Positions 17,110-25,549 of a DNA stretch of 64,000 bases are shown one piece after another. Source of the DNA: Eggerthellaceae bacterium (GTDB lineage Bacteria; Actinomycetota; Coriobacteriia; Coriobacteriales; Eggerthellaceae); the NCBI GenBank assembly GCA_009782605.1, contig WRIR01000001.1, positions 1 to 64,000 on the forward strand, in the 5' to 3' direction. The translations under genes and the position numbers were made by a program. Under the pieces are notes generated by a model, which saw only the letters and a list, made by a program, of their open reading frames with translations, searched no databases and was not told the origin of the DNA. Position 1 is the stretch's first letter, and each line of letters begins with the position of its first letter.

Positions 17110-17204
17110 CGGTGTTCCTTTCATGGATGCTGTTCCCCTCCATGATAGCAAATGAATCCCCCGCGACGGCCCGAAGCCCGCAATCAACCAAATCTCTAGG
17201 ACGG

Positions 17205-17316
17205 GGTGTCAATGGGGACGGGTGTCAATGGGGACGGGTGTCAATGGGGACGGGTGTCAATGGGGACGGGTGTCAATGGGGACGGGTGTCAATGGGGACG
17301 GGTGTCAATGGGGACG
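17205..17316. repeat. Seven tandem copies of 16-bp GGTGTCAATGGGGACG (subfamily A half-arm)
   Basis: Exact repeats counted in sequence. Confidence 0.97.
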
Positions 17317-17649: not shown

Positions 17650-18297
17650 TCAGTTGCGCAGCTCGTGGCAGGTTCCGCATTGGAAGGTGCCGCGGTGGTG
17701 GCATTGTGCGCAGTACCTCACCGCATCCCTGCCCAGGTTCTCCGAATGGTTGTTGTGGCAGTCGGTGCAGGTCGCCGGGCTCTCGTCGTGGGTGGCGCCG
17801 GGCGGCCGGGAGTGGGGGTTCACCACAAGCCCGTTGCTGTCGGCAAGCGCCGTGCTCCCCCCGGTCTTTTGGGCCATCTCCCCCAAGCTGCCGTGGCAGG
17901 CAATGCAGGCCTGCGAATCGACGCTGCCGCCCTTGGCCTGCGCGGAGGGCCGGTCGGCGAAGGTGACGCCCTCATGCGCCTCGGCCAGGAAGGCCTCGTG
18001 GGAATGGCAGCTGCCGCAGTCCTCGTCGCGGTGCGCTGCCGCCTGGGCCTGGCCGGGGCCGGCTCCCAGGCCGGCCTCGCCTTCATGGCAGATGGCGCAG
18101 TCGCTGTCCGGCGTCCAGCCTATCTGCTCGCTGCCCCAGGCCGCGCCCCCTTCGCCTGCAGGGCTGCCGGCCGGGGAGGCATCGGCAGATGCCTCCCCTC
18201 GGCCTTGGTTCGGCGCACAGGAGGCCAGCGGGAACAGGCCGGCTCCCAGCGCAAGGGAAAGCACACACGCAATCAGCGCGAGCTTCGGCTTGCTCAT
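17650..18297 (-). CDS. Multiheme c-type cytochrome (six CxxCH), lipoprotein-like signal
   Basis: CAICH, CGSCH, CIACH, CTDCH, CAQCH, CGTCH; N-terminus ...LFPLASCAPN. Confidence 0.9.
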   Translation of the reverse strand: MSKPKLALIACVLSLALGAGLFPLASCAPNQGRGEASADASPAGSPAGEGGAAWGSEQIGWTPDSDCAICHEGEAGLGAGPGQAQAAAHRDEDCGSCHSHEAFLAEAHEGVTFADRPSAQAKGGSVDSQACIACHGSLGEMAQKTGGSTALADSNGLVVNPHSRPPGATHDESPATCTDCHNNHSENLGRDAVRYCAQCHHRGTFQCGTCHELRN

Positions 18298-19976
18298 GCC
18301 TCGTCCCAGTTCCCGAGCCCCGCGCAATGGCGGCCGGAGATGCGCCCCCAGACCATGTTCTCGGCGTTGTTGCCGCCGGTGATGCCATAGGTGTGGCTTT
18401 GGAAGTTGCCGAAGCTGCCCGCTGCGTACAGGCGCGGGATAACCTCGCGGGCGGGGTCGAGCACCTGGCCGTTCGCGTTCTTCATCGGCCCTCCGAGCGT
18501 CGAGCACGAACCCGGGTACAGCGATATGGCGTAGTAGGGGCCCTCGTCGAGCTTCACAAGCCGCTCGGGGTTGCGGTCGAAGCGGGCGTCCTTCTTGCTC
18601 TCGCAGAAGCCCTGGTACTCGTCGAAGGTCTCCCGCAGCGTGTCGATGTCCATCCAGTGGTCGAAGTCCTTGATCTTCTGCCCCAGTTCCTCAAGGGTGT
18701 CCCCCTTCAGTATCCAGCCGCGGTCGAGCTCCGCCTTGTTGTCCGTGCTCCAGCCGTCCCAGGCCCGCAGCGAGTCCGGGAGGTCGGAGGCGAAGTTCCC
18801 GCATTCGAAGAAGTCGCCCTGGCTCGTGCTCAGCTTGCCCGCGTCGAAACAGCTCTGGTCGAAGATGCTCCAGCTGGGGATGCGGTCGAAGTCGGCTATC
18901 TTGTCGTCGAAGTGCAGCAGGGTGTGCCACCCGTTGTGCGGCGTGCCCATGCTGCCCTCGTTGACGTAGCGCCGCCCCAGGCGGTTCACGGTGAAGTAGG
19001 AGAAGGCCGGCATGAAGGCCAGGATGGAGAAGTCGTACTCGGGGTCGCGCGTCCACATGGAGTACATCGAGATGGCCATGTCCATGTGCCACAGCTTCGC
19101 GCCCACGTCCTCGACCATCTTGATGCCGTCGCCCGTGTTCCATTCCCAGCCCTCGAACTTGAAGGGGTAGCATTTCAGGTACTCGTTCTTCAGTTCCTCG
19201 TTGAACTCGAAGCCGCCGGTGCACATAACGACGCCTTTGCGGGCCTTGATGGCCTTCTGCGTGCCGTCCGCGCCGACAAGCGTGTATGCGCCAAGGATCT
19301 CCTTGGTTGCGGGGTTTTGGATCAGGCGCTGGTCGTGGCAGTCGAACAGGACCTCGATGCCGAGCTCTTCCCGCTTCGCGTCGAGCTCTTTGAAGGTCAC
19401 CATGCCGAAGCCGTCTATGGAGGCCAGCTTCTGGGCGCCCTCGAAGGCGCCGCCCTCAAGGAAGGCGTATTCGGGGATGGAGCCGGCGAGCGCCTTCTCG
19501 ACGACCTCGTAGGTCATGTTGTACTTGTCGGCGTACTCGACGTTGCGGACGCACTCTGCCACCCAGGCGTCTATCATGTCGTCGGGCGTCTTGCCGTGCG
19601 TGAAGGTCTTGATGTAGCGCTTGAAGAGGTCGGCCTTGTCCGGCTCGATGATAGTCCATTCGCCGTTGTTGATCGAGCTGTTGCCGCCGCCGCGCAGGGG
19701 GACCTTCTCAAGCACGATAACCTCCTGGCCGCCCTCGTCGGCGGCGATGAGCGAAGCCCACATGCCCGCGCCGCCGTACCCGATGACCAGCACGTCGCAC
19801 TCGTGGTCCCAGGCCTTCGGCAGCCAGTCGCCGCCTGTGCCTGCCGCGTCGGCCGTGCCTGCCGCGTCGGCCAGGCCGCAGCCCGCAAGCGTTGCCGAGC
19901 CTGCTGCGGCGGCGCCGGCGAGGGCAGCGCCTTTCAGGAACGAGCGGCGCGACAGGCCTTTGTTGCTTTGATCCAT
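18294..19976 (-). CDS. Tat-exported FAD-dependent reductase (fumarate/urocanate reductase-like flavoprotein)
   Basis: LSRRSFLKGAALAG...TLAGC; DVLVIGYGGAGMWASLIAADEG; ITGGNNAENMVWGRISGRH. Confidence 0.88.
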   Translation of the reverse strand: MDQSNKGLSRRSFLKGAALAGAAAAGSATLAGCGLADAAGTADAAGTGGDWLPKAWDHECDVLVIGYGGAGMWASLIAADEGGQEVIVLEKVPLRGGGNSSINNGEWTIIEPDKADLFKRYIKTFTHGKTPDDMIDAWVAECVRNVEYADKYNMTYEVVEKALAGSIPEYAFLEGGAFEGAQKLASIDGFGMVTFKELDAKREELGIEVLFDCHDQRLIQNPATKEILGAYTLVGADGTQKAIKARKGVVMCTGGFEFNEELKNEYLKCYPFKFEGWEWNTGDGIKMVEDVGAKLWHMDMAISMYSMWTRDPEYDFSILAFMPAFSYFTVNRLGRRYVNEGSMGTPHNGWHTLLHFDDKIADFDRIPSWSIFDQSCFDAGKLSTSQGDFFECGNFASDLPDSLRAWDGWSTDNKAELDRGWILKGDTLEELGQKIKDFDHWMDIDTLRETFDEYQGFCESKKDARFDRNPERLVKLDEGPYYAISLYPGSCSTLGGPMKNANGQVLDPAREVIPRLYAAGSFGNFQSHTYGITGGNNAENMVWGRISGRHCAGLGNWDEA

Positions 19977-20297
19977 GTTCTCCTCCTTCGTGATGTGGTA
20001 AAAGCCCCTCTCGGACCTCCTTGTGGAGCGTCCTTGTGGTCGGACCACCTTAATGCCGCCCGCCCCTTTGCGCATCAGACGCTCGATAGGATTTCCCATT
20101 TCCCGCCCCCACCCCTGCGAATTGCCTTAAAATAACGAGGGATAGGATGCTCAATCCGATATGGACGGAGGGAAGAAGCCCTATACTCGGAATCCGACTC
20201 GATGGCGGGGCTTTGCCCGGGTAGGGCCATCGCCTCGCATTGTTGCCTTGTATTGCCGCCTCGTATTGCCATTGCACGTTGGAAGGAAGATTGCGCA

Positions 20298-21995
20298 GTG
20301 TCCAAGAAGCTCGACGAACCTGATTTCGGCCGCGCTGGGAGCGCGGGTGCCCGCGACGGCGCCGGGGGCGCGGGGGCTCGCGACGGCGCGAGGGGCGCGG
20401 GGGGGCGCGACGGCGCGGGGGGGCGCGACGGCGACGCGCTCAACTACCTCACGGTGGTGCTCGGCTTCGGCCTGTGCCGCGCCTGGATCGTGTTCTGCCT
20501 CTCCGCCTCCTTCCTCCACAGCCCCTGGATGCAGTCCCTGCCGCTGGCGGACACCGTGCTGGCGGACACCCTCGGGCTCGGCCATGCCCCCTATTGGCTC
20601 TACCTCGTCGCCGGGGCGCTCGCCGCGCTCTTCGCCGCCTTCGTCGCAGGGAACTTCCGCGAGGACGAGCAGGGCGTCCGCGTGTCGATGTACCGGGCCT
20701 GCGGCGCCCTGCTCGCCCTGTCTGCGGTCATCATCCCCTTTGCGCTTGCCCAGCACATCGAGCTGCTTATACTGAGCGGCTTTGTCATCGGCGGCGCCGG
20801 CGCCGGGGTGCTGCAGGTCTTGTGGGGCGAGCAGTTCGCGAAGCACGAGATACGCTTCGCGACCATCGCCTCCCCAGCGGCCGCCATCGTGACGGCGGTG
20901 CTCGTCGCCCTCACGTCGGCCGGGATAAGCCTGGTCGGCTATATCGTGTTCCCCCTGCTCTCCTTCGGCCTGCTGGTGTCCGGGTGGACAGGGGACGAGG
21001 TGTCAATGGGGACGTATAATTTTGACACCTTCGTTCGACTTCGTGACAGAAGAGAGCGTAAAAAGGTGTCAAAATTATACGTCCCCATTGACACCTCCAT
21101 TGACACCTGTCCGCAGGAGCTCGACGACAGGGTCAAGAGGTCCTTTGCCATCAAGGTCGGGAAGCTCATGTTCTCCATCATGGTCTTCTCCTTCCTCTGC
21201 CGCATCTTCGACACCCTCCCGCAGAACGGGCCCGACCCCTTTGCGCTCTTCGGCGGCAGCGTCCTGTTCTCCCTCATCATCGTCGGGGGAAGCTTCCTGG
21301 CCCTCAGTGCGGTGCTGGGGCAGCGCTTCAACCCGACCTTCACCTACCGCCTGTCCCTGCCCATCATGGTGGCGGGCTTCGTGGCCATCGTCCTGTTCTT
21401 CGACACCCATGCGGCGGTGTGCATCCTGCTTATCAACATCGGCTATGAGTTCTTCGACATACTGGTCTGGATACTTTTCACCGAGACGGCGCGGCGTGCG
21501 GGAGAGAGCCCCCTGCGTATATTCGGCCTCGGCGTGGCCTTCATGTTCACCGGCATGGCGCTCGGGTACCTCGTGGGCGACGTCCTCAACTCGCATATCG
21601 CGGGCGGGGGCGTCCAGGTGACCGCCGTCGCCGTGCTTTCCATCCTCAGCCTCGTCGTCGTCGCCTTCCTCGTCATCCCCGAGCAGACGGTCGAACAGCT
21701 CCTGCACGCCGTTCGGCCCGACAGGAGAAGCGAGCCCGACAGGCCCGCGGAGGCAGGCGCGCCCAACAACAAACTTGAGGTGAACTGCGGACGCGTTGCC
21801 AAGGCCTTCCGCCTCACGCCGCGCGAGGGCGAGGTCTTGGTGCTGCTTGCCCACGGGCGCACGCTTTCCATCATCGCGCGCGACCTCTTCGTGGCGAAGG
21901 GCACCGCACGCACGCACATGGAGAACATCTACCGCAAGCTCGACGTCCACAAGCAGCAAGAGCTCATCGACCTCGTGGAGCAGTTCGGGCCGTGA
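20298..21995 (+). CDS. Multi-TM LuxR-family transcriptional regulator carrying an in-frame REPIN-like insertion
   Basis: TM-rich N-terminus; C-terminal LTPREGEVLVLLAHGRTLSIIARDLFVAKGTARTHMENIYRKLDVHKQQELIDLV; GTG start. Confidence 0.9.
   Translation: MSKKLDEPDFGRAGSAGARDGAGGAGARDGARGAGGRDGAGGRDGDALNYLTVVLGFGLCRAWIVFCLSASFLHSPWMQSLPLADTVLADTLGLGHAPYWLYLVAGALAALFAAFVAGNFREDEQGVRVSMYRACGALLALSAVIIPFALAQHIELLILSGFVIGGAGAGVLQVLWGEQFAKHEIRFATIASPAAAIVTAVLVALTSAGISLVGYIVFPLLSFGLLVSGWTGDEVSMGTYNFDTFVRLRDRRERKKVSKLYVPIDTSIDTCPQELDDRVKRSFAIKVGKLMFSIMVFSFLCRIFDTLPQNGPDPFALFGGSVLFSLIIVGGSFLALSAVLGQRFNPTFTYRLSLPIMVAGFVAIVLFFDTHAAVCILLINIGYEFFDILVWILFTETARRAGESPLRIFGLGVAFMFTGMALGYLVGDVLNSHIAGGGVQVTAVAVLSILSLVVVAFLVIPEQTVEQLLHAVRPDRRSEPDRPAEAGAPNNKLEVNCGRVAKAFRLTPREGEVLVLLAHGRTLSIIARDLFVAKGTARTHMENIYRKLDVHKQQELIDLVEQFGP
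20986..21112. repeat. REPIN-like palindrome, subfamily A, inside LuxR ORF
   Basis: 33-bp perfect arms GGTGTCAATGGGGACGTATAATTTTGACACCTT / reverse complement, loop ~31 nt. Confidence 0.95.
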
Positions 21996-22588: not shown

Positions 22589-22737
22589 CGGACATCCTTT
22601 CCCTCGCGTTCCAAGTCCCCCCAGACACTAGCCCCAAAGCGCCCGCCCCGCATCAGACGCTCCGTCCGATTTTCTGCCAATTTGCCCTGTTGGGCCTCTC
22701 AGCTCTAGACCAGCCAGGCGGGGACGCGCCAGTTGCC

Positions 22738-22911
22738 TTTGTCGATGGGGACGACGTCGGGCGACACGTGTGACAAGGGGGTGGACAGGGGACGGGGCGT
22801 TTGTCACCTTTGGATACGTTCGGGGACGAGCGTCAATGGGGACGAGTGTCAATGGAAAAAGAGCACCCCGACCAGTAAGAGGCCCCCTGTCACACTCACC
22901 ACTCGTCCACC
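22738..22911. repeat. Degenerate REPIN-like cluster downstream of uppP
   Basis: gtcgatggggacg, gtggacaggggacg, cgtcaatggggacg, gtgtcaatgg; gtgacaa...ttgtcac hairpin. Confidence 0.7.
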
Positions 22912-23849: not shown

Positions 23850-24043
23850 AGCTGCGCTTCCTTATCGCCCGCTTGCGCGGGCCTGTTCTCGCGGGCCCGA
23901 CGAACGGCGAGGGCCCGGGGGTTCCTGTATTCTGCCTTTGATTGTACACGAGCGCGGGCGGGAGTACGCTGGCACGCACCATAATACCTCAAGAATCCCC
24001 TCCCCTGTGGGGGGTGCGTGCCAATGGGGACGGATGGACAAGG

Positions 24044-24140
24044 GGATGGACAAGGGTACGTATAATTCGTCCATCGGTGGACAGGGGACGGTACTGAGTG
24101 TGGCAATAGATGGACGAATTATACGTACCCTTGTCCATCC
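24044..24140. repeat. REPIN-like palindrome, subfamily B
   Basis: 32-nt arms ggatggacaagggtacgtataattcgtccatc / reverse complement. Confidence 0.95.
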
Positions 24141-25549
24141 CGCTGGCGGGAGGCGCTTCCCGGGATGCCCAGCACGTTGCGGTACTTGTTCACCGTCCGG
24201 CGGGACACCTCGACCCCCTGGCCTGCAAGGAGCTCCACTATCTGGGAGTCGCTGAAGGGGCGGCTCTTGTCCTCCGAGTCGACGAGGGCCTTGATGGCCT
24301 GCTTCGCGCCCAACGACGAAGGGCCGCCTGGCGCGCCTCTCAGCGCCGGGCTCGGGAAGAAGGAGCGGAGCTCGAATACCCCGTGGGGGGTTTGGATGTA
24401 GTTCCCGTTGACAATGCGGCTCACCGTCGACTCGCTCACCCCTGCCTGGCCGGCAATCTCGGACATGGTGAGGGGCCGCATCCCCCGCAGGCCCTCGGCG
24501 AGGAAGCCGGCCTGGGAGCGCATGATGCAGCACGCAATGCTGTGCAGGGTCGCCTGGCGGCGCTCCACGCCGGTCATGAGCGCTTTTGCGGCCTTGAGAT
24601 TTTCCCTCAGATAGGCCTGCGTCTCCTTGTTGGTGTTGCTGTCCCCCATGAGGTCGAGATAGCTTTGCTCCAAGGCGAGCTGGGGGATGCCGAGGTCGAA
24701 GAGCTCGACGAGGATTTCCTTGCCTCGGAGCCTGACCGAGACCTCGGGGATGACCGACCCGTCGGCCTCGTGGCAAAAGGAAAGGCCGGGGCGCGGGTTC
24801 AAGGCCCTTATCTGACCGACTATCCTCTGGATTTCGCCTATCGGCGCCCCGAGGCGGTCAGCGACCTTGCAAAGGCTCCCCGACGCGATGTCGCCGAGGT
24901 GGTCTTCCACCACCTTTTGGGCCAGGGCGCTGTCCTCGCCCCGCGCCTGCAGCTGTAGCCAGAGGCATTCCCCCAAATCGCGTGCGGCCACGCCGGTCGG
25001 CTGGCACAGCTGCAGCAGGCCGACCATCCGCTCCACCTCTTCGGGCGCCTGGTTCAGGCAGCGTGCCGCCTCCCCCACCGTGATGCGCAGGTAGCCGTTG
25101 CTGTCGATGTTGCCTATCAGGTATGACGCCGCCAGGCGCTCGCCGGGCGTTCGCACGTCGAAGCGGACCTGGTCTTCCAGGTGGCTTTTCAGGGAGGGCC
25201 GTTCGGTGAAGAACTGCTCGAAGGAATAGTCCTGCCGCTGCTTGTGTTCGCTGTGCGAGCCGACCGGCCGCCTGCGCTCAAGGCGGTCGGCCAGTGCGGT
25301 GACGCTCGTGTAGTCAAGGGCCTCGGGCGGGCCGCTGTCTTCGCTGGCGGGCAGTGCTTCTTCGCCGAAGGGGTCGGCCTCGTGCTCATCGAGACACAGA
25401 AGCGGGTTCTCGCGCAGGGCGTTTTGGACGAACTGCGACAGCTCGACGGCAGACATCCCGAATATCTGGATGCCGAGCTTCATTTCCGCAGATAGCCTTA
25501 ACCCGTTTTTTTGCTCAAGCGAAATGCTGTGGTACATGCCTTCGTTCAT
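24119..25549 (-). CDS. rpoN: RNA polymerase sigma-54 factor
   Basis: GLRLSAEMKLGIQIFGMSAVELSQFVQNALRENPLL; TGVAARDLGECLWLQL; SRRTVNKYRNVLGIP (RpoN box). Confidence 0.92.
   Translation of the reverse strand: MNEGMYHSISLEQKNGLRLSAEMKLGIQIFGMSAVELSQFVQNALRENPLLCLDEHEADPFGEEALPASEDSGPPEALDYTSVTALADRLERRRPVGSHSEHKQRQDYSFEQFFTERPSLKSHLEDQVRFDVRTPGERLAASYLIGNIDSNGYLRITVGEAARCLNQAPEEVERMVGLLQLCQPTGVAARDLGECLWLQLQARGEDSALAQKVVEDHLGDIASGSLCKVADRLGAPIGEIQRIVGQIRALNPRPGLSFCHEADGSVIPEVSVRLRGKEILVELFDLGIPQLALEQSYLDLMGDSNTNKETQAYLRENLKAAKALMTGVERRQATLHSIACCIMRSQAGFLAEGLRGMRPLTMSEIAGQAGVSESTVSRIVNGNYIQTPHGVFELRSFFPSPALRGAPGGPSSLGAKQAIKALVDSEDKSRPFSDSQIVELLAGQGVEVSRRTVNKYRNVLGIPGSASRQRDGQGYV

Follow-up and report, generated by a model that had tools for sequence, protein, structure and literature searches.

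A membrane-bound LuxR-type regulator in the 64,000-nucleotide window analysed here contains a palindromic mobile element within its open reading frame. The element is very probably a REPIN of a lineage-specific, RAYT-associated family, which was inserted in a variable loop of the regulator and is translated as a tolerated replacement linker. The window is the whole stretch of DNA under study, and all coordinates without a prefix refer to it.

Architecture of the element

The core of the element (20997-21097, not assigned to a strand) consists of two inverted REPs and a spacer. Positions 20997-21031 and 21063-21097 form an inverted repeat with 35-nt arms, which are 100% complementary (35/35) and separated by a 31-nt spacer. 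The RNA hairpin formed by 20997-21097 has a folding energy of -72.6 kcal/mol and a z of -15.6 against 200 shuffles, which places the palindrome far beyond chance and is in line with the very strong mRNA hairpin proposed in the initial annotation. A partly repeated outer frame, GGACAG...CTGTCC, extends the foreign segment to 20986-21112 (plus strand), that is 127 bp and residues 230-272 of the protein, WTGDEVSMGTYNFDTFVRLRDRRERKKVSKLYVPIDTSIDTCP; these outer limits are drawn from the GGACAG and CTGTCC repeats and not from an empty site. The whole segment has a low GC3 and no counterpart in orthologues from 19 other genomes. The previously described palindrome of about 127 bp thus stands when the outer frame is included, while its perfect arms measure 35 nt and not 33.

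The REP unit, GTGTCAATGGGGACGTATAAYTTTGACAC, is a short palindrome in which a GTGTCAA...TTGACAC stem of 7-8 bp closes a G-rich loop of about 13-15 nt containing GGGGACG. Arm 1 (GTGTCAATGGGGACGTATAATTTTGACAC, 21000-21028, plus strand) forms a hairpin by itself (GTGTCAA / TTGACAC), and the identical arm 2 lies inverted at 21066-21094 (minus strand). Both match the family pattern with 0 mismatches. Comparison of the spacer (21032-21062, plus strand) places the LuxR copy in a subfamily with the copies at C4:84957, C4:85763, C15:34496, C29:2112, and C29:2912. Relative to these sister copies, the spacer carries three private G-to-A changes, and the arms carry none beyond one subfamily base. A direct repeat at 21085-21108 (minus strand) represents a tandem duplication of the REP end (CCATTGACACCT twice), and similar end-unit repeats occur at 17199-17316 and at C29:2912.

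The REP family in the genome

The REP pattern, allowing up to 3 mismatches, has 38 matches in the draft genome, compared with 0 for the reversed-pattern control. Among these matches, 15 full inverted dimers with lengths of 95-113 bp can be recognised, namely the LuxR copy and 14 further full-length dimers. Together with singlets and weaker copies, 25 loci of the family were mapped in the draft assembly, which comprises 30 contigs and is 83% complete; the analysis covers the stretches around the copies. One of the full REPINs, with extra REP-end units, lies between predicted genes at 1649-1781 of the window.

According to gene prediction from codon usage, with these loci as the training set, 21 of the 25 are intergenic, three overlap the 3' end of a gene, and one, the LuxR copy, is located inside a predicted gene. 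The three overlapping loci (C16:31758, C16:39957, and C4:108823) were rejected as internal copies, as the overlapped gene ends with the TAA stop codon supplied by the REP, resulting in the C-terminus VNGDV-stop. The genes that end in this way encode an AMP-binding ligase, a second LuxR regulator, and an MMPL transporter (L105:1759-1778, L105:9958-9977, and L109:3500-3519). A candidate second intragenic copy at C4:104004, in a 410-aa ORF, was also rejected since this ORF is antisense; the REP sits between a homoserine dehydrogenase and a phosphatase-like gene. A single intragenic locus among 25 in a dense bacterial genome would imply strong removal or avoidance of intragenic copies.

The two arms of the dimers change together. 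Across the 15 dimers, 14 differences from the consensus have a mirrored counterpart in the other arm and 6 do not. When arms were randomly re-paired, at most 9 mirrored differences were obtained in 2000 permutations, none of which reached 14 (0/2000). The mirrored mutations fit either hairpin-templated correction or joint copying of the arms, and any choice between the two would be inferential.

Occurrence in relatives and association with RAYTs

The family appears to be confined to a narrow lineage. BLASTN returned no match to the family REPIN in 40 relatives, and no exact copy of this REP was present in the 85k genomes searched. With a looser REP pattern, only G018 and G132 matched besides the source genome among 140 genomes of the taxonomic family, and their REPs are divergent. 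The relaxed pattern also retrieved 15 Clostridia loci with similar REPs, near which tblastn found no RAYT.

RAYT genes encode tyrosine transposases. In the relative G132, the REP GTGTCAGTAGGGACGTTTCCTTTTGACAC precedes the Y1 domain of a RAYT gene by about 200 bp, and similar inverted REPs follow the gene. These flanking REPs differ from the REP of the LuxR copy at about 5 of 29 positions. Two RAYTs were found in the assembly of the source genome, both flanked by other REPs. The first, at C4:8829, lies between REPINs that share the architecture but not the sequence, while the second is bracketed by related single REPs. Neither of these two, found in an 83%-complete assembly, is the cognate RAYT of the REP in the LuxR copy. 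Within the order, short inverted repeats whose loops resemble GGGACG accompany several RAYTs. The link between REP and RAYT in G132, combined with these repeats in the order, suggests that the element belongs to the RAYT-associated REP class. Taken together, the dispersed family of inverted REP pairs and the occurrence of this type of REP beside a RAYT in a relative support the identification of 20997-21097 as a REPIN, as the initial annotation had proposed.

The host gene and the insertion site

The host gene (20298-21995, plus strand) encodes an MFS-like membrane LuxR regulator of 565 aa and is the best-scoring coding ORF over the site. The assignment is based on a GerE domain (PF00196), a weak MFS_1 match, and hydrophobic segments. 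From the GTG at 20298 to the stop ending at 21995, all 565 codons remain open through the palindrome, and the LuxR/GerE HTH domain (PF00196, residues 506-559, E 5.6e-13) follows in frame after the insert; the earlier claims that the palindrome keeps the ORF open and leaves the downstream HTH in frame are thus confirmed. In the hydropathy profile, two hydrophobic blocks flank the loop, which is consistent with about 12 helices, although adjacent helices merge in the profile; the topology rests on this profile and on the published description of a 12-TM family (PMC9734109). The N-terminus of the gene contains GC-rich in-frame tandem repeats (20332-20433, GARDGAGGAGARDGARG...), which are not evident in the aligned orthologues. 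Adjoining divergent genes encode a TAT-signal FAD reductase (18294-20099) and a multihaem cytochrome c protein (17650-18507), and it is a reasonable guess that the regulator controls this pair.

Orthologues were recovered from 19 other genomes at 21 loci, of which two repeat the same gene; one genome gives two proteins or fewer. The REPIN peptide is absent from all of the orthologues recovered from these 19 genomes, so the objection that the segment could be native sequence of the family fails. Its description as an insert tolerated through preservation of the frame is supported. In the eight orthologues examined, identity amounts to 38-52% before the segment and 50-66% after it, and drops to 4-13% over the segment, which falls in a hypervariable loop that varies more than any other part of the membrane domain. 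This loop has 61 residues with the REPIN and about 18 without it, compared with 45-126 in the orthologues. With 12 lysines and arginines, against 4-11 in the orthologues, it is the most basic loop of the set, in line with the basic loop that the in-frame element had been suggested to encode. Its fraction of A, G, S, P, and T is 0.26, compared with 0.40-0.59.

The loop start found across the orthologues, mostly of the FEANRTG type, is missing in this protein, and the length of the REPIN-containing loop stays within the family range. Thus, the REPIN seems to have taken the place of most of the native linker instead of simply adding to it, either by insertion combined with deletion or after an earlier loss of the linker.

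Age, translation and alternative explanations

The GC3 of the insert is 0.56, whereas the flanks show coding-type values of 0.92 and 0.90; the insert is therefore not adapted to the codon use of the genome. The low GC3 and the perfect arms point to a recent insertion, although the perfect arms could also reflect correction. The element is probably translated, which is the simplest reading because the frame is open and the flanks are intact. By itself, an open frame says little, as three of the six reading frames of this element are open. Translation of the element would entail candidate peptides from VSMGTYNFDTFVR.

In the proposed sequence of events, RAYT-mediated transposition would have placed the REPIN in the region coding for a central loop of the membrane domain, a variable, hydrophilic, and probably cytoplasmic target. 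Insertion and loss of most of the native linker would have left the frame open, so that the element would be translated as a basic replacement linker of about 43 residues, with the sensor helices and the HTH domain remaining intact. Selection would tolerate the insert because the loop is without conserved sequence, and the insertion would be neutral. The exact ends of the insertion, any lost native bases, and the age of the event are inferred.

There is a small chance that the gene is a decaying pseudogene, with a regulator disrupted by the REPIN and a frame that is only fortuitously open and not yet eroded. The recent appearance of the insert (arms 35/35, GC3 0.56) would agree with this, as would the weak evidential value of an open frame when 3/6 frames are open, and a 35-bp hairpin of -72.6 kcal/mol in the mRNA could lower expression. 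However, the flanks retain a GC3 of 0.90-0.92, no stop or frameshift occurs elsewhere, and the HTH domain is intact. The insertion also sits where the membrane domain varies most, and the loop length remains within the family range. A tolerated replacement linker is thus preferred over decay. That the basic loop encoded by the REPIN has been domesticated and alters the working of the sensor is improbable; the idea is prompted by two of the three private changes, which are amino-acid changes raising the positive charge relative to the sister copies (G to R and E to K), and by the takeover of the greater part of this central linker of the membrane domain.

An assembly error is unlikely. A misjoin or collapse driven by the repeat could have placed the REPIN in the gene or removed adjacent native sequence, and a draft of 30 contigs with 83% completeness and about 15 similar copies is prone to suspicion on this count; the missing native linker would likewise fit a collapsed longer insertion. 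Nevertheless, both sides of the segment match one orthologue in the same frame and order, and the three private spacer changes indicate that the copy was not taken from another assembled locus, leaving only a slight chance for such a chimera.

It is scarcely credible that the element remains untranslated, whether because ribosomes bypass the very strong hairpin, as they do in phage T4 gene 60, or because some members of the population excise the REPIN, which would switch the regulator: the open frame makes bypass needless, the loop would shrink on removal to about 18 residues, well short of the 45-126 in orthologues, and precise excision of 127 bp, which is not a multiple of 3, would shift the frame. 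Excision of REPINs has been seen in population sequencing of Pseudomonas (PMC3116915).

Relation to known systems

The REPINs of Pseudomonas fluorescens consist of two inverted REPs and a spacer, and are dispersed, predominantly extragenic, and RAYT-associated (Bertels and Rainey 2011, PMC3116915). The present family shares the inverted REP pair with spacer, the dispersed, multicopy, and mostly extragenic distribution, and, judging from the relative G132, probably the RAYT association. It differs in its REP sequence, in its copy number of tens rather than hundreds, and in the coding location of the LuxR copy.

Intragenic REP singlets and dimers of the GTAG and CGTC super-families mostly encode 20-30 aa, and clusters up to 43-82 aa (Di Nocera 2013, PMC3733652). 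REPs of another super-family donate stop codons to neighbouring ORFs (PMC3733652). The family described here resembles these in having a REP dimer within an ORF and in supplying stops to neighbouring genes. Unlike the GTAG/CGTC REPs, which have a terminal tag, and loops of 4-5 nt in the case of CGTC, it has a stem of 7-8 bp and a loop of about 13-15 nt, and the target is the loop of a membrane sensor. Membership of the CGTC family was considered and rejected, as CGTCCCC is located in the loop and is not a terminal tag; the REP also contains no GTAG. Eggerthella and Coriobacter are not mentioned in the 2013 survey (PMC3733652).

Rickettsia palindromic elements (RPE) are found in frame in protein genes, as are nearly half of the copies in R. 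conorii (Ogata 2000, 2002, in PMC10969869). Like RPE, the present element is palindromic, about 100-150 bp long, and in frame, and encodes a tolerated segment. The likeness concerns anatomy, and in contrast to the often intragenic RPE, this family is intergenic at nearly all loci, with 1 of 25 intragenic.

The host protein matches a large paralogous family of Coriobacteriia. In Eggerthella lenta, the LuxR regulators DadR, CadR, and HcdR, with 10-12 TM helices, activate nearby metabolic enzymes (PMC9734109). The many-helix membrane domain, as judged from hydropathy, the C-terminal LuxR HTH, and the location near metabolic enzymes are shared, while the REPIN-coded loop sets this regulator apart.

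The kind of event is already known, with intragenic REP dimers and RPE as precedents. Apparently new, by a literature check in an open library, are the host clade, the REP type with its short stem, GGGGACG loop, and lack of a terminal GTAG/CGTC tag, and the replacement of a membrane-sensor linker. The case is a well-documented example, beyond Proteobacteria and Rickettsia, in which a non-coding mobile palindrome has probably turned into protein sequence, and it shows where such insertions can survive, namely in a hypervariable linker within a large family of regulators. Two further results are a RAYT-linked REP class, with a short stem and GGGGACG loop, in a Coriobacteriia-type clade, and a coordinated change of both arms within REPINs. 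An effect on the sensor is testable by ordinary genetics in Eggerthella.

Further repeats in the window

Several other repeats lie elsewhere in the window. At 17199-17316, 7.3 tandem copies of a 16-nt unit, GGACGGGTGTCAATGG, lead into a single REP; both here and at C29:3026-3090, REP ends seem to undergo tandem multiplication. Degenerate REP-like ends (GGACAGGGGACG, GCGTCAATGGGGACG) are clustered between genes at 22733-22860 and form no long inverted repeat. A perfect inverted repeat with 33-nt arms and a 33-nt spacer at 24043-24141 belongs to a different REP family (GGATGGACAAGGGTACGTATAATTCGTCCATC) and is apparently intergenic.
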